A DNA stretch of 64,000 nt, taken from NCBI RefSeq assembly GCF_014698305.1, contig NZ_JACJST010000001.1, positions 186,001 through 250,000 of the forward strand, written 5' to 3'. The notes below the pieces were generated by a model. That model searched no databases, was not told the DNA's origin, and saw only the letters and a program-made list of their open reading frames with translations. Numbering within the stretch: the first letter of the stretch is position 1; every line of letters starts with the position of its first letter. The position numbers were made by a program, and so were the translations under genes. The DNA is from Anabaena lutea FACHB-196 (GTDB lineage Bacteria > Cyanobacteriota > Cyanobacteriia > Cyanobacteriales > Nostocaceae). Shown here in pieces: positions 46,074-64,000 of the stretch.

Positions 46074-46490
46074 ATGGAATGTAAAATTTTTTTGAAAGTA
46101 AATACAGATTTAGATGCTGCTGCTGAAATTTTATCTTGGTTTGAGCAGATTAATCAACCTCCTTTTCCAGATCAACAAATTTGGTGGCAACTCCAAACAA
46201 TACTTATAGAAGGATTTATAAATATTGTTGAACATGGACACAAGAATTTATCCCCTTTAACTCCCATTGAATTGGAAGCTATACGCTTCAATAAACACAT
46301 AGAAATTCGCATCTGGTGTTTTGGCCAACCTTTTGATTTAGCTCAACAATTACAAGATACTCCAGAATTAGAGGATAATGATAAAGAACGGGGAAGAGGT
46401 TTGAAAATTATATCTGCAATTGCAGACAAATTGACCTATGAACAGATAGCAGATAACCGTTATTGTTTATTTATGAGCAAATCTTATTGA
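46074..46490 (+). CDS. RsbW/HmpW-like serine kinase anti-sigma factor (HATPase_c_2)
   Basis: The 138-residue GHKL ATPase has an N-box [11 protein letters not shown] and a G-box region [21 protein letters not shown]. This is the kinase of the partner-switching triad: it phosphorylates the STAS antagonist and otherwise binds a sigma factor or other target. The STAS and PP2C genes lie directly upstream on this segment. Its stop overlaps by 7 bases the stop of the convergent hybrid kinase. Confidence 0.88.
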
Positions 46491-49400
46491 GATTGATTTC
46501 TCTTGGTTAAAAAGGCTTGAATTCCCTGAAGCGATGCTTCTAAATCAGCTACTAATTTATCTACACCAGTAAGATCCTGACTACGAATCATTTGTTCTAG
46601 TTTCTCTGCTGTTTGCTGGATGATTGTAGCTCCTATATTACCACTAGAGCCTTTAATATGATGGGCTTCTTGCCCCAGTTTTCGATAATCATTAATTGCT
46701 ATTGCGGCTTTGATTGTCTCTACATGAAACGGGATATCTTCCACGAACATTTCTAATAGCTCAAACTCAAATTCTGTATTATTTTCTGAAAGTTGATGTA
46801 GATGATCCCAATTAATTGCTAAACCCTCGAGCAAACTACTATCTGTGCCAGAAATTGTTGGCGTTGTTGGCACTGAAATCATTGTTTTTTGTTGAGTAAC
46901 TATCACCTGACTCCAACGTTCTAGTACCATTGCTAACTTATCTTTAACTACTGGCTTACTCAGATAGTCATCCATGCCAGCATCTAGACAGCTTTGTTGG
47001 TCTTCTTTCATGGCGTTAGCAGTGATAGCAATTACTACAGGTTGGTGACCGCTTGCAAATGAGCTTGCTTGCCGACGACGAATTTGTCGTGCAGTCTCCA
47101 AACCATCTAGAATTGGCATTTGGCAGTCTAAGAGAATTAAGTCATAGGGAATTTTATCCAATAACTGCAAAACTTCTTGACCATTAGCTACAGTATCGGC
47201 ATCATAGCCTAGTTGCTGAAGCTGTTTGAGGAGAACTTTTTGATTGATCAAATTATCTTCTGCTATTAGTAATTTTAGCTTTGATTGAGCAGAACTAGCT
47301 ATCTGTTTACCTGCCTTCTTCGCAGACGGTTGCTCAATTTTGAGAACTTCCACATAATCTAGTTTGGCCTGGTTGCTCAAAATATTCATAATTGTATCCA
47401 ACAACCGGGATGGCTTGATCGGCTTAACCAAATAACTAGCAAATCCTATGTTTAAAGCTTGTTGTACTTCATCTCTTTGATTAGTAGAAGTCAACATAAT
47501 TAAAGGGATATTAGTAATAGCTGCATTTGCCTTAATTTGCACTCCCAAAGTCAAGCCATCTATGTGGGGCATTTGCATATCAATCACAGCAATATCATAG
47601 GGCTTCCCTTGTTCGGCAGCTATCTCTAAAGCCTTTAAGGCAGTAGTCGCATCGCTAGCCTCCTCCACTTGCATTCCCCAAGAAGTAGCTTGGTGGTAGA
47701 TAATTTTACGATTAGTAGCATTGTCATCGACTACTAATAAGCGGCGCTCAGTGAGTAGCTCACAGTTTTGAAGCTGGGAAATAGGCTGTGGCTGTTTGGT
47801 AAAAGGTAGCTCAAACCAGAATTTAGATCCTTTACCTATCTGACTTTTTACCCCGATTTCTCCTGCCATCAAATTCACTAAATATTGACAAATGGCTAAT
47901 CCCAAACCTGTACCACCATACTGGCGGGTAATGGAAGCATCTACTTGGGTAAATGGTTGAAATAGTTTGTTTTGATCTTCTGGGCTAATGCCAATACCGG
48001 TATCTGTAACGGCAAAATGGATCGTAGCTGTATTATAGTTTTCTGATTTCAGTTCTGCTCGCACCACTACCTCTCCGACGCTGGTAAACTTGAGAGCATT
48101 GCTGATCAAATTCATCAAAATTTGCCGCAGGCGACTTGCATCTCCTTGGAGGTGAGTGGGGACGTTGCGATCAATCAAGGCTGCAATTTCCAATCCTTTT
48201 TTATGGGCTTGGGGAGCGAGTAATTCCAAAACTTCCTCAATACAAGTGGATAATTCAAAATCTAGGGTTTCGAGCATCATTTCCCCGGCTTCAAGCTTGG
48301 ATAAATCCAAAATCTCGTTGATCAGGGATAAGAGAGCATCTCCACTCACACGAATTGTTTCCACAAAATCTTGCTGCTCTGGATTGAGAGGTGTTTCTAA
48401 CAATAAGCCGGTCATTCCCAAAACGGCGTTCATCGGGGTGCGGATTTCATGACTCATGTTAGCCAAAAAGCTACTTTTGGCAAGAGAAGCTAACTCAGCT
48501 TGGTGACGAGCAACTTCGAGTTCTTGTCTTTGCAAAGTTTCTGCTTGGAGCAATTTGGCTTGAGTTAAGGCAATACCAATTTGGTCAGCGAGGGATTTTA
48601 AAAGTTCAATTTCCCAGGTAGTCCAATTCCGGGAATTGTGGCATTGATGGGTAATTAGCAGCCCCCAAAATTTATCTTTGAGGAAAATGGGAATGACAAG
48701 GTTAGCTTTGACATGAAACTGTTGCAGCAATTCCAAATGGCAAGGCTGGATTTTAGCTTGATTGATATCATTAATACTGCTAATCCTTCCTTGACGATAT
48801 TTTTGGATGTACTGTTCTGTAAAACAAGGATCAACAATATTCTGTCCCAGAACCGCAGGGATGCTGGGAATCAATGCTTCTTTTAGTGCTGTTAATGAGC
48901 TATTTGCCTGTAACTCTAGGATCAGTACACGGTCGGCTTGCAGTAACTTCTGCACCTCTGTGACACTGGTTTGGAGAATTTCATCGATTTGTAGAGAATG
49001 GCGAATTTTCAGGGTGATGTCGGCTAACAATTGCGATCGCCAATTCTGGCGTTGAACTTTTTCTTCTGCCTGCTTGCGTTCTATAAACTGACCTATCTGC
49101 TTACCAATGGACATCATACTCTTGAGCAAATCTGCATCTTCTTGCTGATTTTTTTTGTTAAAGAAAGTTATGACTCCAAAAGTTTCGTTTCCACTGCATA
49201 TAGGAAAAGCAAAAGCTGATTGCAGTCCTACTTGAGCCGCAGCTTTTGCTCTCAAAAAGTGAGCATCATCAATAACACTAGTCAGCCAAACAGGTTCAGA
49301 ACTAGCCCAGACACGACCAGGCAAACCCATCCCTGGGGCAAAGTTTGTTTGTTTGGTGATTGCTTCAAACTCTTGTAGTTCTGGGGTTTCTCTATACCAA

Positions 49401-51127
49401 CAATCAAGATAACGTAAAACATTTACTTGTTGGTCTACTAGCCAAATTTCACCCCAATCCCAACCTAAATTCTCGCAAATTCCTCGTAATATCCGGTGAG
49501 TAGCCTCACTAATAGTGATCGACTCTGCCAAGGCGCTGGTTGCTGCGTATTGTGCCGCTAGATGCTGTTGAGTTAGTTTGCGAATGGTAATGTCAATACC
49601 CGTACTGATAATGTATTCTACTGTCCCTTCTTCGTCTTCTAGGGTGGTGTTTGTCCATTTAATCAATCGCAAACTTCCATCTTTCCTTACCCAGTAGTTT
49701 TCAACTTCCTTAGGACTTTTATGATCTCGTAACTGCCCTAAGTATACTTTGACGGACTCTACTGCTTCGGGAAGGATGAACAAATTCCAAAGATACCTAC
49801 CTCTCACCTCATCAAATGAGTAACCCGTTACTTGCTCACAGGCTTGATTGAAGCGAACAATTTGCCCTTGTGAGTCGAGAACAATAACTAAGGTGCTGGC
49901 TGTGTCTAGGACTGCTGAGATAAAGTTGCGTTCTTTTTTCAGTGCTGCCTCTGTTCGTATCCGTTTGGTAAATTCTTGATAAATGAAGTAGTAGACTAAG
50001 GCCAGAATAATAGAACATAAACAAATGGCAATCGCCACATTAACAATTGTCTGTTTTCCATTAGCTTTAGCTATCGCAGACTCTTGCTTCAGCACTTTGT
50101 TTCTCTCATCTTCCATATCATGGATCAATTTGCGGATATCATCCATGAGAGACTGTCCCTGATTGGTCAGCACTAACTGCAAGGTTGCTTCCAAATTGTT
50201 CTGTTGGCGGAAGTCTATAGTCTGCTTGAGTTCTGAAAGTTTAGCTGCTATTAAACGTTCCAGAATGACGATTTGCTGCTGTTGATATGGTTGTGCTACT
50301 GTTAAAGACTTCAAAGTTTGAAGTTCTTGATTAATCTTGCCAACAGATTCTTCATATGGTTTTAAATAAGACTGTTTTCCTGTCAGCAAGTAACCACGTT
50401 GTCCAGTTTCAGCATCTTTAATTAAAGATAGTAATCTTTCTTGCTTGTTTATTTGCTCTTGGATTTTTATGACTTGATTACTAGTTTTAATAAATAGTTT
50501 CGTATTTTGATAAGAAACAACACCAATCATGACTAAAATTGCTGATGCTAATCCAAATCCTGCTGCAACCCTTTTGAAAAATTGGATGCGTATTTCCTTT
50601 GGTTGTTTGCGTTCCTGGCTTGCAAGTACCAAACTAGCTAAATTGCGTCGAATTTCTAGTTGCTTGATGACTTGACGACCTAAAATTTTTAATGCTTCTA
50701 CCTGTTCGGGAGTTAGTTCCCGTGGTATGTGATCAATTACACAGAGCGTTCCTAGTCCGTATCCCTCTGATGTAGTTAAAGGCACTCCAGCATAAAACCG
50801 GACATGAGGGTCAGATACCACTAGGGGATTGGTGGCAAATCTTTCGTCAATTGTGGCATCAGGAACGATAAAAACATCCTTTTGTCGGATAGCATGAGTA
50901 CAAAATGCAATATCACGAGATGTTTCTAATGCCTCTAAACCTACTTTGGATTTGAACCATTGGCGATTTTTATCGACTAGGCTAACCAAGGCAATAGGAG
51001 TTCCACAAATATATGAAGCTAGTTGAGTAAGATCGTCAAACGCTTCTTCGGGTGGGGTGTCTAGAATCTTATATTCTAAAAGTGCTTCTAATCTTTGTGA
51101 TTCATGCTCAGGTAATGGTCTTTTCAT
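46484..51127 (-). CDS. Hybrid histidine kinase, GAF-CHASE3-PAS-GAF-GAF-HisKA-HATPase-REC-REC-Hpt
   Basis: The protein has 1547 residues. An N-terminal GAF domain (about 20-165) precedes two membrane segments at about 187-208 and 362-382, which enclose a CHASE3-type sensor ([32 protein letters not shown]). PAS (about 400-515) and two GAF domains (about 535-690 and 705-865) follow. The H-box is [14 protein letters not shown] and the HATPase boxes are DTGIGIS and GTGLGLAIC. Two receivers lie at about 1160-1285 and 1310-1435 ([17 protein letters not shown]). A C-terminal Hpt domain carries [12 protein letters not shown]. It is a complete phosphorelay in one chain. The partner regulator is not in the window. 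Confidence 0.94.
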
Positions 51128-51779: not shown

Positions 51780-52913
51780 TTATTTGAACTCGTAGTAGCT
51801 GTCAGAATCTACACGCATAAAAGGAGAATATGCTCTACGCTCACTATCAGGATTAACTTTAACCTTACTTGCATAGTCAGCACCTTCCTGATCTTCACGA
51901 ATTGCTCTCCAAACCAATAAACGCCAACCTTCCACAGATACTAAATAGCGATCTGTTGTTCTACCAGGCTTGAGCCAACGCAATCCATTTCCAACATTAA
52001 TATGTTCATATTGCGAAAAACTATCTTTAGAAGTAGCAGCCCGCAATAGAAACCGAAATGGATCGCAGTCATCTAATTGTGCCAGGTTATCAAAACAATC
52101 TCTGATAGCTTTTTGTGAAAGAAAAGGAACTAATACAGAAGGTTTACGCATTTCTTCAAGAAACAAAAAACCTACAGCAGAAATAGTTACGTGATTATTA
52201 GAAAACTCAACTAGCGATTCCAACATTTTTCTTTCTGCATAAGGAACTCTTTCTTCCCATTCTTCTTGAGAGATTTCTGTCTCACGCTCTATTTTTTCAA
52301 ATAAATCTTTATAGATGTCAAATTGCGATCGCTTAAATTCTACAGGAAGCGGAGGTAATTCTAGTAATTTAGTTGACTGTTCAAATATGTAATCACACTT
52401 AATTCCTTTCAACATACCTAGCAAAACCGTGTAAGGAACTAGAGCTTTATATCCTCCAGTTGGATTCAGAATAATATTACTTGCATCATAACTTTCAACT
52501 TCTTTAAGAATACGTTTCACAAAGTTAACAACACCTTCTTTTCTGAACAATTCAGCATCTACAACTTGCAGCCCTGGGATTTTTTCAGTTTTAACATCTA
52601 TGTTATCCCGGTAATATTTGAGATATTTTTCAACTGCAAGAGCGCAGCAATACCCATCATCTGTATTTGAAGCAAGCAAAATTACTCTATCTTCATTAGT
52701 AATCCCAATCCTAAAAAGAGAGTGAACTTCAGCAGATAAATTGTTCTTCAAATTTTCATCTTCAGGAAGAATTTCACGAAAGGTAGAAAATACTTTTTCA
52801 GCAGCATCTTCTATACTTTTTTGTTTTTTAACCCAATTAATTAAATCTCTTGGGTGAATTCCTAAAGATTTTGCAGCACTTGTTCCTACTGAACATATAA
52901 CTGTTTTAACCAT
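51780..52913 (-). CDS. CARF-domain (APE2256/TIGR02619-like) type III ancillary effector with possible RelE-like tail
   Basis: The 377-residue protein has a CARF domain at 1-190. The cyclic-oligoadenylate pocket is marked by CSVGTSA (7-13) and NPTGGYKALVPY (150-161). A helical middle region spans about 200-300. No RxxxxH motif exists anywhere, so it is not a HEPN RNase of the Csm6/Csx1 type. The tail (about 305-345; GLRWLKPGRTTDRYLVSVEGWRLLVWRA) has the basic beta-strand pattern of RelE/HigB mRNA interferases, so a CARF-RelE (Cami1-like) effector is a reasonable hypothesis. AGGAG lies 8 bases before the ATG. It is the last cas gene of the operon, 39 bases after cas6. Confidence 0.82.
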   Translation of the reverse strand: MVKTVICSVGTSAAKSLGIHPRDLINWVKKQKSIEDAAEKVFSTFREILPEDENLKNNLSAEVHSLFRIGITNEDRVILLASNTDDGYCCALAVEKYLKYYRDNIDVKTEKIPGLQVVDAELFRKEGVVNFVKRILKEVESYDASNIILNPTGGYKALVPYTVLLGMLKGIKCDYIFEQSTKLLELPPLPVEFKRSQFDIYKDLFEKIERETEISQEEWEERVPYAERKMLESLVEFSNNHVTISAVGFLFLEEMRKPSVLVPFLSQKAIRDCFDNLAQLDDCDPFRFLLRAATSKDSFSQYEHINVGNGLRWLKPGRTTDRYLVSVEGWRLLVWRAIREDQEGADYASKVKVNPDSERRAYSPFMRVDSDSYYEFK

Positions 52914-52952: not shown

Positions 52953-53717
52953 TCAAATGCTTTTTGTCTTTCCCATCCCCAACCGTGTCTTCATCCCCGT
53001 ACCAGAAAACCGTGCATATTCAACTAATAAATTAGCCACATTTGCCAATAAAGGATCAGCACGTTGGAAAATTTGTAATGTTACATCCCCAATAAATCCA
53101 TTCACAAACCCTTTATGTAATTGATAAGTTCGCGTTTGAATTTTGTGATTTTTAATCACAACTGCGTTACTAAGATAAGCAATTAATTCATCACCTCCTA
53201 AATAAACAGGTGCAAAATTATTCCAGCGTTCTAACCAACTGCGAAACATTAATGTAGGTAGAGGTAGAGGTAGGGGTAAGTTGGTTGTACCTTGGGAAAA
53301 AGCTGTAGGAGTGATAAATTGCAGTTCAAAGCGTCTGACTGGTTCTGGTTCATTTCCTACTAAGTTTGTATAGAGTTCTTCATAGCTGGTTATTTCATCT
53401 CCACGATTGATGATTTCAAACTTCGCGCCGAGAAATTCTAAAGAATCGCCAATATTTAAATGAGAAATTGCTTTTGCTGATGTTTCATTCAATCCACACA
53501 AAGATAGTTTGTAAAATTCCTCTGGATGGAATGTAATAAAATCTTTGGATATGGAGTAAAAGCCAGTTATTCCTGAGTAGGAAAGAGAGGGTATAGTCTC
53601 GCTTCCCATTTCTAAACCTAGCTGTTGATGCAGTTGCTTTACAAGTTCCAAGCTATAGGAACGAGGTAATACTGTTGATGTAGATACGGTTAATGTAAAG
53701 GTTGATTGAATTAGCAT
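52953..53717 (-). CDS. cas6: Cas6 CRISPR RNA endoribonuclease
   Basis: The protein (254 residues from this ATG) has the two-ferredoxin-fold organisation of Cas6. The C-terminal glycine-rich segment is visible in KGFVNGFIGDVTLQIF and YARFSGTGMKTRLGMGKT. An N-terminal His in LVKQLHQQLG is a candidate catalytic residue. Cas6 cuts the precursor within repeats, here expected to leave the 8-base ACTGAAAC handle. I chose the ATG at 53717, which overlaps the csm5 stop by 7 bases (ATGCTAA). The longer frame to 53747 adds MGKARNIIRY inside csm5. Confidence 0.9.
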   Translation of the reverse strand: MLIQSTFTLTVSTSTVLPRSYSLELVKQLHQQLGLEMGSETIPSLSYSGITGFYSISKDFITFHPEEFYKLSLCGLNETSAKAISHLNIGDSLEFLGAKFEIINRGDEITSYEELYTNLVGNEPEPVRRFELQFITPTAFSQGTTNLPLPLPLPTLMFRSWLERWNNFAPVYLGGDELIAYLSNAVVIKNHKIQTRTYQLHKGFVNGFIGDVTLQIFQRADPLLANVANLLVEYARFSGTGMKTRLGMGKTKSI

Positions 53718-55075
53718 ATATCTGATAATATTTCGAGCTTTACCCATCCAGGAGCAAATTCTATTTCTCCATTCTTATTCATTACAGTGCGTCTGGATTT
53801 GGGCGCTTTAAATGATGGAGCGCGATTTTGAGGATTACCACATTCATCAAGAATACCTCTTCTAGTTGTCTCATTTAGATGTAACCCAATTGTAGTTCCT
53901 AATATTCCACTTCCCCATCCTAATCGCAAGTTAAAAGGACAGTCAAATTCTTTATAAAATTCATTAATTATATCAAAGTTTAGGTTAATTTTTCTGCCAT
54001 TAATGTTGATTAATTCATTTTGTATTTGTTGCCAATAATTTCGTTCATGACTCCATTGTTCTTGAGCAAATTCTTTACAGATATTTAAGATATCTTCAAT
54101 GGTTTGAAATGGAATTTTTATTCCATCATTTCGGCTAAACCAAGATAACATTCCCGTCATAGCTTCATATTCATCTATGTAGCCATCTATATTAACTCTA
54201 AATTCGGTTTTTACATTATGAATCATTTCAGCATAAATAGAACCACGATATTTTGCTATATTTTTTTGTGGTATAGAAGTTTTATCTCTGTAGTAACTAG
54301 AAATGATCACTTCATCCAATAAAGATAAGTTAATATTGCCAGTTTTTAACATGGGTTGAGTATCTGCAATTTTTACACTTCTCATGAGGTCTGTATTCGC
54401 TTCACTTTCGTGGTTAAATTGTCTATCTTGATAGGTCAACCAAAAGTTAGAAAATAAATCTTTCATAAACAGTTCATTACCTAAGTTTTTCTTGCTTCTA
54501 CCGATTTTTCCATTTATTGTTAACCTTTCTTGAAGTTGTTGCTCAATATTACTAAGTCGTGCTGGTTTATTTTTAAGCATATAGTATGCAATTGCAGTCC
54601 TGATTGCTCCTTTAATTGATGAACCAGGAATATATAATTGTCCAAAAGCATTACGGATTATTGGACGTATTTCATGATTAACTCTATGTCCAAAAGATTT
54701 GTTTATGATTCCATAATCAGGAAAGACACTTTGATTTTCAAACCATTTATCACCCAAAGCTAACTCGATGATTTCTGCTATTTTCTGATCATCTTTGTCT
54801 TCAATTGCTCGAATATATACTTCTAAAGCTTTTCCTGAATTCAAATCCTTAATTCTTTCCCAAGGTTTAGGCTTTTGCAAATTACCGCGCTTATGCAATG
54901 CCTTTGTTAAGGCTTCCTGATTAGGAATATAAATTTTTTCAGTAGTTTGTAAATATTCAAATGGATTTAATCTCTGTACTTCTGAACCAATATGTAAAAG
55001 TGGACTAGTTAACTGTATCCGTTTTGATTGATAAAAGTCAGGTTTTTTAAGTGCAGATTCAGAAGCAACAAGCAT
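53711..55075 (-). CDS. csm5: Type III-A RAMP protein Csm5
   Basis: The 454-residue RAMP protein carries the block FGQLYIPGSSIKGAIRTAIAYYML typical of Csm5 and Cmr-type RAMPs, and a glycine-rich loop near the end (FNLRLGWGSGILGTTIGLHL). Csm5 caps the 3' end of the crRNA in the Csm complex. It overlaps csm4 by 17 bases and cas6 by 7, so translation is coupled. The C-terminal 60 residues are basic (FKAPKSRRTVMNKNG). Confidence 0.88.
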   Translation of the reverse strand: MLVASESALKKPDFYQSKRIQLTSPLLHIGSEVQRLNPFEYLQTTEKIYIPNQEALTKALHKRGNLQKPKPWERIKDLNSGKALEVYIRAIEDKDDQKIAEIIELALGDKWFENQSVFPDYGIINKSFGHRVNHEIRPIIRNAFGQLYIPGSSIKGAIRTAIAYYMLKNKPARLSNIEQQLQERLTINGKIGRSKKNLGNELFMKDLFSNFWLTYQDRQFNHESEANTDLMRSVKIADTQPMLKTGNINLSLLDEVIISSYYRDKTSIPQKNIAKYRGSIYAEMIHNVKTEFRVNIDGYIDEYEAMTGMLSWFSRNDGIKIPFQTIEDILNICKEFAQEQWSHERNYWQQIQNELININGRKINLNFDIINEFYKEFDCPFNLRLGWGSGILGTTIGLHLNETTRRGILDECGNPQNRAPSFKAPKSRRTVMNKNGEIEFAPGWVKLEILSDIC

Positions 55076-56132
55076 GATTTTCTTTTCCCTGTACTTTAAT
55101 TGGTAAACTTAAGCTGATACCACTCCGGTAAATACTATGTTTTGTGAATTCCTTTGGTTTTACATCTACCAGTTTTCCTTTTGGTGGTGCAGAAAAAACC
55201 GAACCTTCACTAAACATTCTTACCATTTGGCGACGTAACTGACTTTCTGCTATCCAACCGCCCCTTTCTTGAATTTCGTAACTGGCTTGATCTAAAAATT
55301 CAGGTTTGATAGGTGAATCCCAAAATAAACTCATGAGGATATGATGATTTCCAGCGTGAAAATTAACTACAGATTGCCAATTTTCTGGTAATTCTAACCA
55401 GCTAAGTTCAAATCTTCCTGCGCCACTAGAACGTTCTCCACCAATTCCTTCTTCTCCTAAAAGATATAAAGCAGCTTGAAGTTTATCGGCTAATTTTTCA
55501 CCTTCTGGAGAGAGTTCTAGAAGAAAGTATAAACCTGAAGGGTTTTTCTCCCAATCAAATTGAACAAAGCCTGTATGATAAATGTTTGTAGCTCTGGTAT
55601 TTCTATCTATGGCTATTTTAGGGAGTTGTTCAATTTTGCAAGCTTTGCTGTAGTTAAATGTTTCTGCTGTTGCTAGTTCTCCTTCGGTTTTATCAGGGGT
55701 GTGATTTTCTAATTCCTGAGCATCATCTGTGGTGAATCCTGTTTCCTGATACCATCTTTGCCAGATTTCTAAAGGTAAATAGTTGAGTTTTTTGTAGGCT
55801 TTAAAAAATGCTAAATCATCATCTGGATAGTTAATGGGAAATTTCAGAGGACGGGGAAGATAGTAAATTGTATTTTTCCCCACTTGTCGATAGATAAATG
55901 TAGAACTGATGCGAAAGGGGGGTATGAGTTGGGGTTGTTTGTCTGTGGGAAATAGCTGTAATAATTCCTCTACGGCTTTTTTGCCAAACAACCGCGCATA
56001 TATACTTACCCAGGCGCTAAATAAACTATCGGAACGAATGCGATCGCTCGTCTCTTCCATTCCAATTCCCAGTTCCCCAAAATGAGCTAAATTACGTCCA
56101 AAATTGAGTTTTACTAATTTCCAAACACTCAT
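55059..56132 (-). CDS. csm4: Type III-A RAMP protein Csm4
   Basis: The 357-residue protein starts MSVWKLVKLNFGRNLAHFGE, followed by TSDRIRSDSLFSAWVSIYARLFG, the characteristic beginning of Csm4/Cmr3-like RAMPs. The glycine-rich loop is EEGIGGERSSGAGRFELSW. Csm4 holds the 5' handle of the crRNA and contacts Cas10. It overlaps csm3 by 4 bases (ATGA). Confidence 0.9.
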   Translation of the reverse strand: MSVWKLVKLNFGRNLAHFGELGIGMEETSDRIRSDSLFSAWVSIYARLFGKKAVEELLQLFPTDKQPQLIPPFRISSTFIYRQVGKNTIYYLPRPLKFPINYPDDDLAFFKAYKKLNYLPLEIWQRWYQETGFTTDDAQELENHTPDKTEGELATAETFNYSKACKIEQLPKIAIDRNTRATNIYHTGFVQFDWEKNPSGLYFLLELSPEGEKLADKLQAALYLLGEEGIGGERSSGAGRFELSWLELPENWQSVVNFHAGNHHILMSLFWDSPIKPEFLDQASYEIQERGGWIAESQLRRQMVRMFSEGSVFSAPPKGKLVDVKPKEFTKHSIYRSGISLSLPIKVQGKENHACCF

Positions 56133-57118
56133 GATTCATTTCCTGGTAATAATCGTTGTTCGATATACTCGCGTAAGGCTCTGAAGTTATCTAACAGTGC
56201 TTGAGTGTGGGGAATGGTGTCTAAGGTTTGTAAAGCTGATGTTCCTTGGGGTGCGTTGGCCATTTGGCGATATTGTTCTAAGCTACGATAGTTAAATTTA
56301 AAGTTTTCAAATTTGACTTTTCCGTAACCTCTAGAACCATGTCCACCCAGTGCGTCATCTTCGAGAAAAGCTAATGCGATCGCAATATTTTGCAAATCTT
56401 CAACCGCTTCATTTGGATCTGGATTTTCCACAGTATAAACTAACTCAAAATTAAATTGTGAACCTGCTGGTACACGCTCTACCTGTCTGGGGTTTGCTGC
56501 TGCTGTTACTCGGTCAATACCATTTTCAAATTTCCACTCAGTCATATATAAACCAGTGTCAACTTTTTTCAACTTCTCTGTTGAATCTGGTGATAGGTGA
56601 CAATCACGGATAATTAGGCGACTTGGTGCATTACGTCCGCGATTAATTTTCACGCAGTTTTGATTTTCAATTATACGAGTATGAATTTCATCAAAAATCA
56701 AACCTTCATTTCTTGCGCTTTCTATTGGTATCCAAAAATTAGAGCCACCTGTAGAACCGAATAATCGACTAATTTGACAAGTTCTAGCACCTTCATAACG
56801 AATGGGATAATAATGACCTTCTATCTCCGTAAAACCATCAACTAAATCATCACTTTCATAGCGCCATGTCCCACTTCCCCCTGTGCGATTGAGAGGTTTT
56901 TTTAATAATCGTTCTAATGTGGCGCGGAGTTTACCTTTGATTGATGAACCGGGGAGATAAGGATACTTGGTTAAAGGATCACGAATCACAGGTTTATCTA
57001 GTCCACCTATATCTAAATTTTCGCCACCACCACCAATATGCAATCCAGTTTTGGCAGTGAGTTCACAAGTGAGAGTTACTTTACCAACTAGGGGTGTTTG
57101 TTCGTATGATACTGGCAT
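56129..57118 (-). CDS. csm3: Type III-A RAMP protein Csm3 (target RNA nuclease subunit)
   Basis: The 329-residue protein is the backbone subunit that cuts target RNA every six bases. The catalytic loop is intact: TGLHIGGGGENLDIGGLDKPVIRDP has the conserved Asp in GGLD. The following YPYLPGSSIKGKLRATLERLL is the RAMP signature, and DALGGHGSRGYGKVKF is the glycine-rich loop. The length exceeds typical bacterial Csm3 (about 220 residues) through an enlarged middle section (about 85-200). The gene starts 2 bases after csm2. Confidence 0.93.
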   Translation of the reverse strand: MPVSYEQTPLVGKVTLTCELTAKTGLHIGGGGENLDIGGLDKPVIRDPLTKYPYLPGSSIKGKLRATLERLLKKPLNRTGGSGTWRYESDDLVDGFTEIEGHYYPIRYEGARTCQISRLFGSTGGSNFWIPIESARNEGLIFDEIHTRIIENQNCVKINRGRNAPSRLIIRDCHLSPDSTEKLKKVDTGLYMTEWKFENGIDRVTAAANPRQVERVPAGSQFNFELVYTVENPDPNEAVEDLQNIAIALAFLEDDALGGHGSRGYGKVKFENFKFNYRSLEQYRQMANAPQGTSALQTLDTIPHTQALLDNFRALREYIEQRLLPGNES

Positions 57119-57120
57119 AA

Positions 57121-57684
57121 TTATCTCCTACTATCTGCTTCTTTGTGATATGCAATTATGGATTCTATGAACTGAACAAGACGGTAAAAATCTTGAGGAC
57201 TTTTTACTCTGTCAATAGCAAATTTCATGACCTCATTTAAAGGTTTAACTGCTGTTTGTCTGGCTGCTGCATAAGCTAATTTGGGTTTGAGTAGAACAAT
57301 TTCGGTTTCAATTTTGTTAAACCTTAACTTTTCTTGCTCTTCTGGATTGGCATTTTTGATTTTTTCATCATCATCTAATGCCAAAATATATTTAATTTGA
57401 TTGATAGCATCAAGAAACTTACGAATTTGATTAGTTTCTAGTCTTTGTTCTTTTAGATAATATCCTAAATGTTCAGCTTGTTGAACTAAAGTACGAATAG
57501 GATAATCTTTCAGAAAATCACTATTACCAATTACATCCTTAATTTCTTTGACGATGTTGGTGTTATTTTCACGATTAACACGAGAATTAGATTGAGATGA
57601 GTTATTTGACTGCTTGTCTGACTGTTTGACAATTTGTCCAGGATTTCTTGTATTAGGAGGTTGTGGTTTATTCAGGTTATTCAT
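57121..57684 (-). CDS. csm2: Type III-A small subunit Csm2
   Basis: The 187-residue protein is mostly helical in its last 130 residues, with LETNQIRKFLDAINQIKYI, characteristic of Csm2. The first 50 residues are Asn/Gln/Ser-rich and disordered-looking (NKPQPPNTRNPGQIVKQSDKQ). Csm2 forms the inner filament of the Csm complex along the target RNA. It overlaps the end of cas10 by 4 bases. Confidence 0.85.
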   Translation of the reverse strand: MNNLNKPQPPNTRNPGQIVKQSDKQSNNSSQSNSRVNRENNTNIVKEIKDVIGNSDFLKDYPIRTLVQQAEHLGYYLKEQRLETNQIRKFLDAINQIKYILALDDDEKIKNANPEEQEKLRFNKIETEIVLLKPKLAYAAARQTAVKPLNEVMKFAIDRVKSPQDFYRLVQFIESIIAYHKEADSRR

Positions 57685-59996
57685 AATGATGATCCACGAT
57701 TTAATAATTCAATCCAAGTCGCTATGGCGCGAAAATAAGGCGCGTTATACGGATTTTTGAGAGAAGTCCGAAAATCGCTATCTTGTAATACATTTTGTGG
57801 TAATCTCGCTAGGGTATAAGCTATCTTTGGCAAATGCAAATAATAACGAGTTCCTAAAGCCTCCTCTGATTTCTTATTTTCTTTAAACTTTTCTAACGCC
57901 TGTTCCTGAATTTGTGCAGTGATGAGCAGGTTACGGACAAAATTACGGGCATAATTCACCCCAATATCTTGCTGTTCTAATCTCTCAACAAAAGGGAATA
58001 TACCGAATAAATTTGGTTTGGCTTCGGAATCAAGATATTTTTTGACGTCAACATCCAAACTATTAATATTCTCTATTCCTAGCCATTCATTCCATTTGAA
58101 AACTTGACCAAATAAACCTAAACTGTCTCTACCATTTCCTTTTGCTGATTCTTCAGCTTCTCCTGAATTTTTTGCAGCTTGATATAACGGAAATTTAATA
58201 TCATCAATACTAATTCCACCTGAAAGGGTAACATCTTCATTATTACCTGTATAGGTACGAAATGACTGATAAATATCAAAAGCAAATTCTACAATTTCAT
58301 TCCATGCGCCACTGATAAATAAATCATCCCCACCAGCGTAAATAAATAGTAAATTTAACCGCTGGTTATCTGGTGTTAATTGTTTAATTTTATCAGAAAT
58401 GTTGGTTTTTCGATCTGCTGCCAAACTGTTGAGGTAAACTTTAAAGAAATAACTCATTTGGCGAGATAACCCAGCTAGTCTGGTTAAAGTTTGTTTTTTA
58501 CCTAAACCTTTTGCAAATATTTGTCCTAATCGGTCTACATCCATTCGTAGATAACTAACTCTATTAGCACCTTTCGCTTTTTCAGACATTTCACCAGCAC
58601 GGATAAAACCTCTTGGTTCTTCTGAATTTTCAGACTTTTCCTCACTTTCTTTAGCATAGTTACCTAATAACAGGAGAGAAACATTTTGAAAATTCTTAAA
58701 TTGATAATGTTCTAACTGCCAATCGTTCACTAACAAAACTATATCAGAATCAGTATTTATTTCTCCCAGGTTTTTGAATAAATGATAATGGATTTCTCTA
58801 GAATTAATTTTAAACGAGAGTGTAGATAAGCCCTTTCTAACACTTTTATTATTTGAGCGCACAATTGCTTTTACGTCCAACAAATGACTTCCTAAATCAA
58901 ACATACTTCGACAATTTACACAAGCTAAAACTGAATCTGGTTCATATTTGTTAAGAGGTTTTAATTTTTCTGGTTCTACATCATCACGATGACAGATGCG
59001 ACAAGGTTCATGACTATAACGTGGGGCGATAAATTCACTAATTTCATGTTCAGCAAATTTACGAGATTTATGTACAGCTAGATTTTTGGTTGCATTTGAC
59101 CAATGTTCAGCAAATTTATCTTTAAGTTCGGTAACGGGAAATTTTAAACAGTCTAAAGCTAGAAATACTTTACCTTGAAAATCTTTTAAAAGCCATTCGT
59201 TAAACTGCTGTCGGATGTTTTTGACAATGTTTTGATTTTCTGCGGTTCCAGATGCCAAAATATACAAGTTACCACCACCTGCATAAATTATATTTGTCCT
59301 TGGTAACTTAAGTTGCTCTAATAATTGTTGTACAACTTCTTCTGTAACTAATTCCAAATAGAAACTTCTCGCCCTTAATGACTTCAGCGCCCCTTCGGAG
59401 GAAATGCTATAGATAAATTTTTGAATCCCTGATAAATCACCCGCAATTAAACTAATTTCTTGAGTAGGATTATTCAATAAAGCTACTGCAACGGCTGCTG
59501 TTGTTCTGGCTATGTCCACCAAAGCTACATCAGATTCACCAAAACTCAGACATGAGCCAAATTTTTCTAATATCAGCATCAATAAAGAAAAGTTTTTTCC
59601 GTTATGCTGGAGATACTTTGCAAATTCGTTATTAATCTCTGCTTTGAAAGCTTTTTGTTGTTCGGGGCTAGGTTCAGAATTTAAGGGATAAGGAATATCA
59701 GGATATTCTTTATCGTCATTGTTAATTGCTTTGAGTGGGTGATATTTCTGTTGTGTTGTTTTTTTTCTAGATTCATCAGATAAGTTTACACTGTCAAACA
59801 ACAAGCTTAGTATTCCAACTTTTGCATCTTCTGTCCAACCGAAAAGCTTTTTAGCATCGTTAACTGCTTTTTGTTCGTTCTCATTAAGAACTTGAAATTC
59901 AAAAGGTAACTGAACCTGATCATCAGCCCATTTTGCCAAAAGTGCGATCGCTTGTTGAACAACCTGTAATGCAACCTTTTCAGAACTTGTCATCAT
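57681..59996 (-). CDS. cas10: Cas10/Csm1 with GGDD cyclase but degenerate HD domain
   Basis: The 771-residue large subunit has the Palm-domain start AGDLSGIQKFIYSISSEGALKSLRARS, a Zn-binding CRICHRDD...CVNC pair and the cyclase motif FIYAGGDDLFISG. It should therefore make cyclic oligoadenylates on target binding. The usual HD motif near the N-terminus (HDIGK) is absent (ALQVVQQAIALLAKWAD), and the later DHS-R motif reads VDIAR. The HD DNase appears lost. GGGAG lies before the ATG pair at 59996. The gene overlaps csm2 and follows the Csx3-ATPase gene by 12 bases. Confidence 0.93.
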   Translation of the reverse strand: MMTSSEKVALQVVQQAIALLAKWADDQVQLPFEFQVLNENEQKAVNDAKKLFGWTEDAKVGILSLLFDSVNLSDESRKKTTQQKYHPLKAINNDDKEYPDIPYPLNSEPSPEQQKAFKAEINNEFAKYLQHNGKNFSLLMLILEKFGSCLSFGESDVALVDIARTTAAVAVALLNNPTQEISLIAGDLSGIQKFIYSISSEGALKSLRARSFYLELVTEEVVQQLLEQLKLPRTNIIYAGGGNLYILASGTAENQNIVKNIRQQFNEWLLKDFQGKVFLALDCLKFPVTELKDKFAEHWSNATKNLAVHKSRKFAEHEISEFIAPRYSHEPCRICHRDDVEPEKLKPLNKYEPDSVLACVNCRSMFDLGSHLLDVKAIVRSNNKSVRKGLSTLSFKINSREIHYHLFKNLGEINTDSDIVLLVNDWQLEHYQFKNFQNVSLLLLGNYAKESEEKSENSEEPRGFIRAGEMSEKAKGANRVSYLRMDVDRLGQIFAKGLGKKQTLTRLAGLSRQMSYFFKVYLNSLAADRKTNISDKIKQLTPDNQRLNLLFIYAGGDDLFISGAWNEIVEFAFDIYQSFRTYTGNNEDVTLSGGISIDDIKFPLYQAAKNSGEAEESAKGNGRDSLGLFGQVFKWNEWLGIENINSLDVDVKKYLDSEAKPNLFGIFPFVERLEQQDIGVNYARNFVRNLLITAQIQEQALEKFKENKKSEEALGTRYYLHLPKIAYTLARLPQNVLQDSDFRTSLKNPYNAPYFRAIATWIELLNRGSSL

Positions 59997-60008: not shown

Positions 60009-60926
60009 TTACTCACTACACAACCCCACCAAAACCCCAGCCAAAGCCCGAACGATCGCACGACTAGAAACATCCTCCCCACGTTTTAACCGATGCACAC
60101 TACCTTTCAGAATCGGCGTTTCCTGTGAAATCACATCACATACACCGTCATAATCACTATGAACAATGGCCACCACCGACAAACCCAACTCATCACATAA
60201 CTCTTGCCAAGGTGCAATCTCAGTTTCATCCTTCACCAAAATCACCGCATGAGTCGCTTCCTTCATAATCAAACGATTAGCATTGGAAATTTTACCCCCC
60301 ACATCAAACACAAATATCGGTGTATTAATCCCCCTGACTTCCTGTGCTTTGCGTTCTGCAAACTCCGGTGTAAATCCTGCTTTGTATTCCGTTTTTAACT
60401 TATTAGCTAAATCTGCGTCCCGTCGTGCGGTTTCCCCATACCATGAACCATCCCCATCTGGACACCCAGAAATTACATAGGATTCCGGTGCATTAGGAAT
60501 CTGCAACAACGCTTGTTTTAGACCTTCCCGGAAGCAAGTCTTTCCAGTATTCGCAAATCCGCAAATCGCCAATTTGATACTTGATGACTGCTTTGTTCGC
60601 ACCACATCCAAAGTATCCCCAACTTGATAATCAGCGTTTTTACTAATCGTGATTACATATCTATCTATTCCTGGTTCACCAATCTTCGGGTCAAAAACAG
60701 CGATCGCATCATACAATTTTGATAACTTATCTGCTAATACCTGACTCACTAATACTGTAATTCTGCCGTTGATTTTAATCAGTGAACCCCCCGGTAATTC
60801 CCCAGAAGCAATCATCTCATTCAACCTGGTAGCTGCATCACGGACGATTTCATCACCTGTAGTCAAGGTAGCGCCAAATCCTACCTTTAAAACATCACCG
60901 TCTAAACTGATATGGTAAATACTCAT
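60009..60926 (-). CDS. csx3: Csx3 domain fused to P-loop ATPase
   Basis: The 305-residue fusion has an N-terminal Csx3 fold (1-105) and a C-terminal P-loop domain (Walker A GFANTGKT 123-130; VFDVGG near 207). Csx3 (Crn3) is a ring nuclease family that degrades cyclic tetra-adenylate in type III systems. Aligned with the neighbouring stand-alone Csx3, this copy keeps Asp79 but replaces the three histidines (65, 69 and 90 in the neighbour) by Asp66, Lys70 and Lys96. It may bind rather than cleave the messenger, or work with the ATPase in another way. It is 12 bases upstream of cas10. Confidence 0.85.
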   Translation of the reverse strand: MSIYHISLDGDVLKVGFGATLTTGDEIVRDAATRLNEMIASGELPGGSLIKINGRITVLVSQVLADKLSKLYDAIAVFDPKIGEPGIDRYVITISKNADYQVGDTLDVVRTKQSSSIKLAICGFANTGKTCFREGLKQALLQIPNAPESYVISGCPDGDGSWYGETARRDADLANKLKTEYKAGFTPEFAERKAQEVRGINTPIFVFDVGGKISNANRLIMKEATHAVILVKDETEIAPWQELCDELGLSVVAIVHSDYDGVCDVISQETPILKGSVHRLKRGEDVSSRAIVRALAGVLVGLCSE

Positions 60927-60987
60927 TAAATGGCGCTGATTAGAAAATAATTAAGACAAGACCCTTGTAATTTAGTTAACTAAAACT

Positions 60988-61293
60988 TCAATCAATTAAG
61001 TCTCCCAGTTTATATGCAGGATTGTGTGTGATGCAAATCACGTATTTACGTAATTTTGGGTCAAAAAAACCAATTGCACCGTAAATATGAGCTAATTTAT
61101 GTGCCAACACAAAAGCTACAGGAATAGAAACGGGTCCATTAATTCTCAGCAGTTGTCCCCCTGTTAATTCTCCTGACTGCGCCATTTCCTCAAGCCGTGC
61201 AGCCGCATCTTTCACAATTTGGTCATTTTGGGCAGGTTCACCAAAACTCAACCGCAAAATATCATTTTTTAACTCAATCTTGTAAGTAGTCAT
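60988..61293 (-). CDS. csx3: Stand-alone Csx3 (Crn3-type ring nuclease)
   Basis: The protein (101 residues from MTTYK) is a single Csx3 domain: KNDILRLSFGEPA, GGQLLRINGPVSIPVAFVLAHKLAHIYGAIGFFDPKLRKYVICITHNPAYKLGDLI. His65, His69, Asp78 and His90 are candidates for the metal and active-site residues known in this family. The ATG at 61293 is preferred over 61329, whose extra 12 residues (MYDVIVAYWVLA) look unrelated. It is the first gene of the minus-strand cas operon, 61 bases ahead of the Csx3-ATPase gene. Confidence 0.85.
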   Translation of the reverse strand: MTTYKIELKNDILRLSFGEPAQNDQIVKDAAARLEEMAQSGELTGGQLLRINGPVSIPVAFVLAHKLAHIYGAIGFFDPKLRKYVICITHNPAYKLGDLID

Positions 61294-61509: not shown

Positions 61510-62838
61510 GTGTCTGAGCAAAATTTTTCTGATATTCCCCAAGCAGAACTGTTGCAATGGTTAGCACGCGGTTCTCTCAAACAAAACCTACTGCGTGCAG
61601 TTCGTTTGTGGGTGTGGTTACGTTCTTTATATGGAGAAGGTCAAGACCATGTATTCTTAGAGGATGGTTTTACCTTAGCAGATTGGAAAAATGCTTTCTT
61701 CAGTTCCACACACCCCAAAGGAGAAGCAATTCCTCAATTCCATGATTCTAACTGTCGTTGTGCCAAAACTACCGCTGACTGGTTGTTTGATACTAAAACT
61801 GGATTGAATCAACAAGAATGGAAGTATTCTTTATTATCCCATGTTAATATTTCTAATTTAGATGAAATTCTGCAAAAAAGATTATTTGGGGTAACTCGTC
61901 GTTCCTTACAAGCGGATTTACAAATTTTAGAAGAATTAGGTTGGCTAGAAATTCGAGAGCAAAAATATCATCGAGTTAAATCTTTACCTTCTCGTCCCAT
62001 CACCACCAAACAGAATAGTAATGAATTACATTTTCTTAATCAAGAAGATTTAGCAGAAATTGCTCAGAATCTCTCTCAAAAAATCGGTGGTGTCCAGCGG
62101 TTCTTTTTTAAACTAGACTATGTTGTGACTGCCATAGACCAAGTAGAAAATTGGCAGGATGAACTGCGAAAACTCTGGTCACAAACCCCAGTTCCACCAA
62201 TCAGTTTAATTTATAATAGTGCCAGATTAAAAGACTCTGTAGAATGTTTGGTTTATCCAGTCTGTATTTACTATGTGCAACGTGCAGTTTATTTGTGCGC
62301 TTTTGGCGAAAGTCCTGATAGAAAAACAGATTGGTATAACTTTCGTTTAGATAGAATCGAAAATATTACACCAATTGAATGGACAAATCCTGGCATTCCC
62401 AAGAGTTTACAACAGCGTTATCACCAGAGAAATTTGCCAAATCCAGAAGAAATAGAATTGCAAATGGATAAAGCATTAGGATTTGATTTTTATTTGGAAT
62501 CTCGACTAATGCTGCTACGATTTGAGCGAGATTATCATGACCGCTATATTCAGGATACTTCTCGGCATAACACTTTTAAATTGATTGGCTACCAAAAAGC
62601 GAAAAGTTTGATTCAAAGTTCTGTAATTAATTCAGAACAAAAATCAGAATTATTAAAAGTTTTTGCCAATCGTTCCCCAAAAGATGCTTATTATAGTCTT
62701 CAATATCGACATGGAGATAATAATGTAACTATGCGTTTACGAGCTTGGCGACCGAAAGTAGAAATTCTGTTACCTTATGATTTAAGACAAAGAGTAGCTG
62801 CTGATATTACCAAAGAAATAGGGCTTTATCATATATAA
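61510..62838 (+). CDS. CRISPR-associated HTH/WYL-type regulator (TIGR03985-like)
   Basis: The 442-residue protein has an N-terminal helical, winged-helix-like region (about 105-160: LFGVTRRSLQADLQILEELGWLEIR, a recognition-helix pattern). A WYL-like part at about 230-320 contains VQRAVYLCAFGESPDRKTDWYNFRLDRIENI. This layout matches the cyanobacterial CRISPR-associated TIGR03985 family and regulators such as Sll7009 of Synechocystis. It is divergent from the cas operon and upstream of the main array, so it probably controls one or both. Start is the GTG at 61510. Confidence 0.8.
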   Translation: MSEQNFSDIPQAELLQWLARGSLKQNLLRAVRLWVWLRSLYGEGQDHVFLEDGFTLADWKNAFFSSTHPKGEAIPQFHDSNCRCAKTTADWLFDTKTGLNQQEWKYSLLSHVNISNLDEILQKRLFGVTRRSLQADLQILEELGWLEIREQKYHRVKSLPSRPITTKQNSNELHFLNQEDLAEIAQNLSQKIGGVQRFFFKLDYVVTAIDQVENWQDELRKLWSQTPVPPISLIYNSARLKDSVECLVYPVCIYYVQRAVYLCAFGESPDRKTDWYNFRLDRIENITPIEWTNPGIPKSLQQRYHQRNLPNPEEIELQMDKALGFDFYLESRLMLLRFERDYHDRYIQDTSRHNTFKLIGYQKAKSLIQSSVINSEQKSELLKVFANRSPKDAYYSLQYRHGDNNVTMRLRAWRPKVEILLPYDLRQRVAADITKEIGLYHI

Positions 62839-63115
62839 TTAGTCAATAATGAATGCTTCACTATTTGTAAACAAATAAATCTTGACAAGTAACTTGCTAA
62901 ATTTTACTCTTAATATAAGGATAAATTTGGCAGACCTAGAGCGAGGTCAAAAACCCCAGGGATTCGCCAAATCGCCAGAACCTTGACAAATAAATACTTT
63001 CAGCGTTTCATTAGTTTCAGTTGGCAGTTAACCCAAAGCCTGAAATGAGGTTTTTTGAGAGGTCTGCCAAAATCGTCTCTGGATTCCGCGCCCAGATTAT
63101 GTTTCAGATAGCGGG
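62839..63115 (+). promoter_or_regulatory. CRISPR leader region
   Basis: The 277 bases between the regulator stop and the first repeat show no gene. TTTGGCAGACCT (62926-62937) and AGGTCTGCCAAA (63060-63071) are perfect 12-bp inverted arms 122 bases apart. The first half is AT-rich and likely contains the array promoter. Repeat orientation (ACTGAAAC at the right) makes this the leader side. Confidence 0.65.
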
Positions 63116-64000
63116 GTTTCCACATAACTAATCCCCGCAAGGGGACTGAAACAATGTTTTCTTGAATTAACTAAGGATGATTTATTTGCGTTTCCACATA
63201 ACTAATCCCCGCAAGGGGACTGAAACTTTAAAAACTCAAAATTGGAATATTGTAGAACTTTGTCCAGGTTTCCACATAACTAATCCCCGCAAGGGGACTG
63301 AAACGGATCTACATCGCCATTTCTTATAGCCTCTGCCCTCGTTTCCACATAACTAATCCCCGCAAGGGGACTGAAACTTAATTTCGCCAGCGAGAGCGAT
63401 CGCTATTTCTGCGTGTTTCCACATAACTAATCCCCGCAAGGGGACTGAAACATTTCTTCGCCATTATCAATTCTTCTGGCTTTGACGTTTCCACATAACT
63501 AATCCCCGCAAGGGGACTGAAACTTGGATTGTTAGAAATTGGCAGATCAATTGAGCAGTCTAAGTTTCCACATAACTAATCCCCGCAAGGGGACTGAAAC
63601 AGAATATATTACACAAAAGATGATGGCTCATCTGCCGTTTCCACATAACTAATCCCCGCAAGGGGACTGAAACTAGGAATATAAGGTATTTCAGGAATAG
63701 GGAAATCCAAGAGTTTCCACATAACTAATCCCCGCAAGGGGACTGAAACATACTACTAACAACGAAAAAGAATTAACTGATGAAGAGAGGTTTCCACATA
63801 ACTAATCCCCGCAAGGGGACTGAAACATATAGCTGCCTTACATAGAGTGTTTACTAAAGCTAGTTTCCACATAACTAATCCCCGCAAGGGGACTGAAACA
63901 GCTAAGGAGACTAGCTCAAGTGAGCCGCCACCACATGTTTCCACATAACTAATCCCCGCAAGGGGACTGAAACAGAGTAAAATATTGAGCATCAAATAAT
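63116..64000 (+). CRISPR. Main CRISPR array (12 repeats visible, continues past window)
   Basis: Twelve identical 37-bp repeats start at 63116, 63190, 63268, 63341, 63415, 63487, 63564, 63637, 63713, 63790, 63863 and 63937. Each begins GTTTCCACATAACTAAT, holds the stem-loop CCCCGCAAGGGG (GCAA tetraloop) and ends ACTGAAAC. The eleven complete spacers are 35-41 bp, all different, and a twelfth is cut by the window edge. Spacer 4 contains a HIP1-like GCGATCGC. The 8-base ACTGAAAC end is the expected crRNA 5' handle. Repeat type and spacer length fit type III. No protospacer for any spacer was seen in this window. Confidence 0.98.

Follow-up and report, generated by a model that had tools for sequence, protein, structure and literature searches.

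A Csx3 ring-nuclease homologue beside a degenerate Csx3-NTPase fusion in cyanobacterial type III-A CRISPR loci: a possible cA4 receptor and its off-switch

The stretch of DNA that was analysed, hereafter the window, comprises 64,000 nt of Anabaena lutea FACHB-196 (Nostocaceae; contig NZ_JACJST010000001.1, positions 186,001-250,000) and carries on its minus strand a type III-A operon, the first two genes of which are an adjacent Csx3 pair. The genes are ordered stand-alone Csx3, fused Csx3-NTPase, cas10/csm1, csm2, csm3, csm4, csm5, cas6 and a CARF7-RelE-like effector, with 61 nt between the stand-alone and the fused gene and 12 nt between the latter and cas10. The features, in window coordinates, are:

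60988..61293, minus strand: stand-alone Csx3/Crn3-like protein, 101 aa (ORF, PF09620, PADLOC Csx3)
60009..60926, minus strand: fused Csx3-NTPase gene, 305 aa (ORF translation)
60609..60926, minus strand: N-terminal Csx3 domain of the fused protein, aa 1-106 (alignment; AF2 model against AfCsx3 6yud)
60012..60590, minus strand: C-terminal domain of the fused protein, aa 113-305, modelled as a SIMIBI-class P-loop NTPase (motifs and fold matches)
57681..59996, minus strand: Cas10/Csm1 with a GGDD cyclase motif (TIGR02578, 579 bits; motif from the translation)
52953..57684, minus strand: csm2, csm3, csm4, csm5 and cas6 (Pfam/NCBIfam profile matches)
51780..52913, minus strand: CARF7-RelE-like effector, the final gene of the operon (PF09651; PADLOC PDLC01939, E 1e-200)
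61510..62838, plus strand: TIGR03985 HTH-WYL regulator, upstream of the Csx3 pair and divergent from it (NCBIfam, PADLOC)
63115..63997, no strand: CRISPR array of 12 repeats at 72-78 nt spacing, reaching the window end (repeat search)

In view of its GGDD cyclase motif, Cas10 is the expected source of a cOA signal. The CRISPR array lies beyond the WYL regulator, and two repeat-like copies are found on the opposite side of the operon. The TIGR03985 regulator adjoins and diverges from the Csx3 genes in four of four loci, namely the window, L177 (plasmid pSYSA of Synechocystis PCC 6803), L178 (the type III-A locus of the mobilizable Pseudanabaena galeata plasmid pPg_04, with a one-chain gene described below) and L179 (on plasmid pNsp_a, typed conjugative, of Nostoc sp. 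ATCC 53789, where a Csx3 pair belongs to a type III locus); in L177 and L179 it is followed by an HD-domain protein. Downstream of the CRISPR operon, a 1547-aa ORF (46484-51127) resembles a hybrid sensor kinase, judging from its translation only. The stand-alone gene starts with the ATG at 61293, with an alternative longer ORF from 61329. An initial annotation had proposed that two adjacent Csx3 proteins lie here, one apparently catalytic (H65, H69, D78, H90) and one degenerate (D66, K70, D79, K96), and the ORFs, positions and residues on which it relied all read the same in the translations.

These residues can be compared with Csx3 of A. fulgidus (AfCsx3), whose active site is described as split between two dimers stacked head to tail (PMC7371418). 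The face with D69 and R71 makes most of the cA4 contacts, together with S44, G45, R46, I22 and I49, and the second dimer contributes the opposite, metal-binding face with H57, H60 and H80; the H60A and D69A variants are inactive singly and active once mixed, and the three histidines are called absolutely conserved in the family (PMC7371418). In the alignment H65, H69, D78, K80 and H90 of the stand-alone protein correspond to AfCsx3 H57, H60, D69, R71 and H80 (the AfCsx3 numbers are used below to name positions), the catalytic set H57, H60, D69 and H80 is complete, and each of the five positions is kept in 53-55 of the 55 paired relatives. The alignment of H65-H69 requires a one-residue gap, as the two histidines are four residues apart and not three as in AfCsx3, and K80 is a conservative change; given the lysine and the extra residue, the activity of the stand-alone protein is itself assumed. 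The residues singled out initially were thus correct, and the set was incomplete, as the lysine at the R71 position (K80 in the stand-alone, K81 in the fused protein) belongs to it as well.

The stand-alone protein scores 24.3 bits against Pfam Cas_csx3 (PF09620), above the cut-off of 21, and 18.1 bits against the NCBIfam equivalog TIGR02579, below the cut-off of 55.4; PADLOC labels it Csx3. Its AF2 model is weak (pLDDT 63.7) and matches AfCsx3 6yud with Z 5.6, equal to SpoIIAA-like STAS folds. PDB sequence searches with either window protein alone gave nothing useful, AfCsx3 being reached only by profile A1, and no stand-alone relative was found in phage records at E 0.01. Within the genome to which the window belongs, PF09620 exceeded its cut-off only for the stand-alone copy; two weaker, sub-cut-off matches (G000:C23:134629-134781 and G000:C1:180689-180805) may be due to chance, since such matches were also obtained in 4/14 control genomes.

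In the fused protein the positions of H57, H60 and H80 are occupied by D66, K70 and K96, so that the entire H60 face is gone. The D69 face is kept as N53-G54-R55 and D79-P80-K81, with lysine for AfCsx3 R71. The model of the N-terminal domain matches AfCsx3 6yud with Z 10.6 and rmsd 2.2 over 93 aligned residues. Family profiles say little about this protein: no Pfam family matched it at E 0.1, the one NCBIfam match (small_GTP, 15.8 bits) is far under its cut-off of 42.5, and among 23 fused relatives Cas_csx3 picks up just 2 at E 0.1. PADLOC calls it Csx3-AAA (PDLC01045, residues 1-300, E 3e-113). The AF2 model of the whole chain, built with 23 sequences, reached pLDDT 81 and pTM 0.62, with pLDDT of 60-72 around residues 150-190.

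The C-terminal domain carries a Walker A motif, GFANTGKT, followed by DGDGSW and FDVGG; the motifs vary little or not at all across 23 aligned relatives, in which the D-x-GG and, within Walker A, the glycines and the lysine are strictly invariant. Its model matches MinD 1ion with Z 13.3 (rmsd 3.3, 167 residues aligned), followed by ApbC, Soj, CobB and BioD at Z of about 11 to 12, and in Foldseek the top matches of the fused model were ApbC, a GPN GTPase and ParA. The best 50 fold matches listed were nucleotide-binding folds of MinD/ParA/BioD/CTP-synthase-like type and AfCsx3; AAA+ proteins were not among them, which does not exclude AAA+. A weak match to CpaE-like TIGR03815 was obtained for 5/13 AfCsx3-like relatives. 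The domain thus models as a SIMIBI-class P-loop NTPase (MinD/ParA/BioD-like); the signature lysine with which the P-loop of MinD begins is absent. The fusion to a P-loop NTPase proposed initially is therefore upheld, its type is refined from "ATPase", and the usual AAA label becomes doubtful. If the SIMIBI placement is right, it suggests nucleotide-driven dimerisation and not AAA+ ring mechanics.

Relatives of the fused protein were collected from 50/386 phylum genomes and 119/217 family genomes, and relatives of the stand-alone protein from 33/386 phylum genomes. The 176 loci obtained yielded 55 distinct same-type pairs. Left out of the pair counts were loci repeating another locus's protein set, L055 and L144 (interrupted fused gene), L071 (unlinked stand-alone copy on the opposite strand) and L023, L171 and L173 (truncated second gene); of two identical G461 matches one was included, and L089, of another subfamily, was counted apart. 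In L055 (9986-11290, Cyanomargarita) the fused gene lies in two frames about 340 nt apart, which may reflect insertion or decay.

The stand-alone copies of the 55 pairs are nearly uniform (H57 55/55, H60 55/55, D69 53/55, K71 54/55, H80 54/55). Their fused neighbours hold D69, K71 and G45 in 55/55 and have mostly lost the histidines, with H57 present in 17/55, H60 in 8/55 and H80 in 11/55; H60 is accordingly lost in 47 pairs, and all three histidines remain in only four (L048, L138, L141, L142). Of 28 same-type fusions that have no neighbouring partner, 27 retain H57, 26 retain H60, 26 retain H80, and all retain the aspartate and lysine. When the same-type pairs and unpaired fusions were joined with 14 AfCsx3-like fusions and L089, less one partial row (L172, a short NTPase piece), 97 related rows resulted, in which H60 is lost in 48/56 paired fusions versus 2/41 without an adjacent partner (Fisher about 1e-16); all three histidines are kept in 36 of these 41 and H60 in 39. 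His loss is therefore not general among Csx3-ATPase fusions; the strong pattern in these sequences indicates that it goes with pairing and not with fusion as such.

On the NTPase tree pairing changes about 5 times and H60 9 times, and only 3 independent pairs lie on supported branches. Such changes are too rare for a phylogenetic sign test to reach significance, so that, with related rows, the pattern is strong and phylogenetically not decisive. The fully degenerate clade of the window is sister to L048, a pair with an intact fused copy, and L049, an intact single fusion; in L131 and L132 H60 was lost while their relatives retain it. It was considered whether an arginine at the R46 position co-evolved with His loss, and this was rejected, as the same arginine stands in the intact L048 and L049 and thus probably predates the loss. 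A search for further copies in 27 genomes with single fusions found a stand-alone copy at another locus in 7, and in 7/7 the fusion is intact; in one of them, G438, the stand-alone copy is broken by a stop. In G439 an intact fusion is closely preceded by a 27-residue open frame that resembles the end of the stand-alone protein (E 1e-4).

The further question whether His loss always occurs beside an intact paralogue is answered by a few exceptions: the Slr7080 clade of Synechocystis, the tandem proteins of L013 and L181, and the loci L014 and L165. The stand-alone copy of L165 bears an arginine for D69 and the fused copy keeps the aspartate; this was examined as natural half-site complementation and discarded, as the stand-alone sequence is garbled around the site. 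In the sister locus L014 the partner is truncated and the P-loop damaged, so both loci are read as decaying and, still within the counts, are not taken as support. Slr7080 of plasmid pSYSA (L177:8001-8933) is an unpaired fusion with Q, P and R at H57, H60 and H80, and with D69 and K71 kept. Its relatives L020 and L021 lack H60 and H80 and have H and Q, respectively, at H57; with the stand-alone protein as query, neither genome yielded a further copy. Slr7080 has been presented as a putative Csx3/Crn3 ring-nuclease domain, and its deletion left plasmid defence unaffected (PMC9676260). Caution is thus advisable, as this "putative Crn3" of a model organism is without all three histidines of the H60 face.

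The AfCsx3-like fusions, sampled through phylum sets only, give a second view of the same relation. Their profile has matches in 48/386 phylum genomes, window-type loci included. Among 23 single-domain fusions of this subfamily H60 is retained in 21/21 without an adjacent partner and lost in 2/2 with an intact one. The fused copy of L180, with D, A, D, R and Q at H57, H60, D69, R71 and H80 (the order used for such strings below), stands beside an intact partner and repeats the window's pattern; that of L089 (E, S, N, Q, H), whose partner is also intact, has lost D69 and R71 along with H57 and H60. As L180, L089 and the tandem L181 fall in one clade, they represent one further origin only. A few unpaired members are changed elsewhere: H80 is N in L093 and L094, L096 has R for H57 and Y for H80, and D69 is E in L092. 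AfCsx3-like stand-alone proteins with the full catalytic set also occur in L190-L197, where stretches of 7-7.5 kb showed no NTPase of the family, and L182 holds an AfCsx3-like case of a Csx3-free NTPase adjoining an intact stand-alone copy.

Which residues persist once the histidines are gone? In the 34 fused proteins that lack all three, the positions of S44, G45, R46, D69 and R71 are invariant as N, G, R, D and K (34/34), as is the proline, and the former His positions vary (permutation p 0.004 among 43 partner-invariant sites). Median dN/dS over these 34 loci is lowest for the stand-alone protein (0.09), followed by the Csx3 (0.11) and NTPase (0.14) domains of the fused chain, by NG86 with 102, 81 and 106 usable pairs, respectively, of 150 sampled. 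A value of about 0.11 with an invariant D69 face points to a fused Csx3 domain maintained under purifying selection, and not rotting. The division of labour first put forward, in which one Csx3 removes the signal and the other senses it for the NTPase, agrees with this divergence of the copies, one face lost and the cA4-binding face invariant, and is supported only in part, His loss being neither general nor always found beside an intact paralogue.

In the best reading, drawn from these sequence patterns, the fused protein would be a non-cleaving cA4 receptor and would rely on the stand-alone copy for the cutting face, perhaps across an interface that the two share; this scheme of a receptor and a partner that switches it off, acting at least in part through a shared site, is given a probability of roughly 0.45. 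The two genes would then form a two-component cA4 module within the type III-A operon. The fused protein would bind cA4 via its D69 face without cutting it, and binding would alter the state of the SIMIBI P-loop NTPase domain. The H60 face of the stand-alone protein would dock on the occupied receptor, cut the ring and turn the NTPase protein off; the stand-alone protein would also remove free cA4 as an ordinary Crn3. As the fused protein is without a working H60 face, it should be unable to lengthen a Csx3/cA4 filament and would end it as a cap. It counts against the receptor with a partner off-switch that the stand-alone protein keeps its own D69 face and hence does not need the fused protein. 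Further points against it are the few changes of pairing on the tree, the eight loci and L143, discussed below, whose NTPase is without a Csx3 domain, the unpaired but degenerate Slr7080 and its two relatives, the tandem chains of L013 and L181, the loss of D69 and R71 in L089, and the four pairs with all three histidines in the fused copy. A stricter version, an obligate mixed ring nuclease and receptor in which a fused dimer, through its D69 face, and a stand-alone dimer, through its H60 face, trap cA4 between them, with partner docking setting the lifetime of the cA4-activated NTPase state, seems rather unlikely. If true, it would be a natural counterpart of the AfCsx3 experiment of mixing D69A and H60A, and several lineages would have hard-wired the pair as one Csx3-Csx3-NTPase chain. 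In this version, by analogy with MinC/MinD, a STAS-like domain with a MinD-like NTPase, cA4-dependent co-polymers may be formed and taken apart by the stand-alone copy.

The arrangement of the genes is in keeping with the receptor and its partner off-switch. In 55/55 pairs both genes lie on the same strand, the stand-alone gene first, at a spacing of -1 to 210 nt (median 52). Csx3-Csx3-NTPase occurs as one chain in six loci (L012, L013, L018, L019, the AfCsx3-like L181 and plasmid pPg_04, where the protein, L178:6001-7326, is one annotated CDS). Losses in the tandem domains are unequal, HHYQT then HHDKH in L019 and A.H.D.K.H then HHDKH in Pseudanabaena, and in L013 and L181 the H60 face is gone from both domains; such proteins fit with mixed assemblies. 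A division of labour without contact, in which the fused protein is a lone cA4 receptor through its D69 face, the stand-alone copy is an independent ring nuclease and the active site is never shared, would leave these one-polypeptide fusions unexplained, as well as the intact histidines of the 7/7 single fusions with a stand-alone copy at another locus. It draws strength from the stand-alone copies, which carry both faces and occur also without an NTPase of the family in stretches of 10-13 kb (L024-L026, L028-L030, L078, L080), and from the fact that conservation of the D69 face in the fused copy requires ligand binding only; on balance it is considered doubtful.

A Csx3 domain that no longer handles cA4 and serves as a scaffold, by dimerising or by docking the ring nuclease onto the NTPase, is a less probable alternative. 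It would suit the eight loci (L022, L163, L164, L166-L170) in which an NTPase without any Csx3 domain adjoins an intact stand-alone copy, where the fused D69 face is evidently dispensable, and also the L089 fused copy, which is minus D69 and R71; the invariance of the D69, K71, G45 and R46 positions in 34/34 would not be required of a scaffold alone. L143 has an NTPase with no Csx3 within the stretch examined. It is very unlikely that the fused domain has acquired a new function as a two-faced binder, with D66 and K70 paired over the dimer axis and K/R96 in contact with a cA4 phosphate, which would give a stable uncut filament. The replacements are indeed non-random (H57 to D in 25/34, H60 to K in 26/34, H80 to K or R in 25/34), and AfCsx3 H60A with cA4 was reported to enter a milky, fibre-like state (PMC7371418), but subclades differ in what they substitute (A, F or Y at H57, N at H80), hence no strict rule is followed. 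Relaxed selection after duplication, with the fused Csx3 domain as a decaying leftover, might be read from graded losses (HQDKH, HQDKQ, NDDKH) and from the sister loci L014 and L165, where the stand-alone copy is damaged and in L014 the NTPase too, yet it is hardly credible when one face is selectively kept and the median dN/dS of the fully degenerate clade is not above that of the NTPase domain.

Fusions of Csx3 to kinase/transferase or AAA domains are already known, their function being given as unknown or uncharacterised in the descriptions available. In a 2025 survey ring nucleases were limited to 250 aa, a ceiling at which Csx3-NTPase fusions would drop out. Among the matches listed in a literature search, none describes the paired degenerate class in its title or abstract opening, and an earlier mention is possible. 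Judging from conserved residues, many Csx3-NTPase fusions are probably not ring nucleases and yet keep the cA4-binding face, mostly where an intact Csx3 adjoins, and an unexplained fusion becomes a concrete hypothesis of a receptor with its off-switch. It suggests that in many cyanobacterial CRISPR loci a signal-destroying enzyme beside a half-dead relative on an NTPase switch makes a two-part on/off device.

Compared with known systems, the window proteins share with Crn3/Csx3 (A. fulgidus AF_1864; PDB 3WZI, 6YUD) the fold of the fused N-domain, the D69 face in both proteins, the equivalents of H57, H60 and H80 in the stand-alone copy and the type III operon setting. They differ from it by lysine for R71 in both proteins, by one more residue between the two histidines of the stand-alone copy, by the missing H60 face of the fused copy and by the adjacency of two unlike copies. 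The Csx3' or Csx3-AAA fusions (PADLOC PDLC01045; Slr7080) have the same domain order and NTPase family as the window fusion; most of their unpartnered members (36/41) keep three histidines, whereas the window fusion belongs to the paired class without the H60 face, and its NTPase models as SIMIBI. With MinD/ParA-type SIMIBI NTPases (1ION, 1G3Q) the C-terminal domain has a common fold at Z 13.3, but just 13% identity, and it is joined to Csx3. Finally, self-limiting Csx1-Crn2 and ring-nuclease CARF effectors, which are named in PMC12409355, likewise couple a cOA receptor to removal of its own signal, whereas in the window sensing and signal removal appear to be divided between two paralogues that share a fold, the catalytic half being provided in trans.
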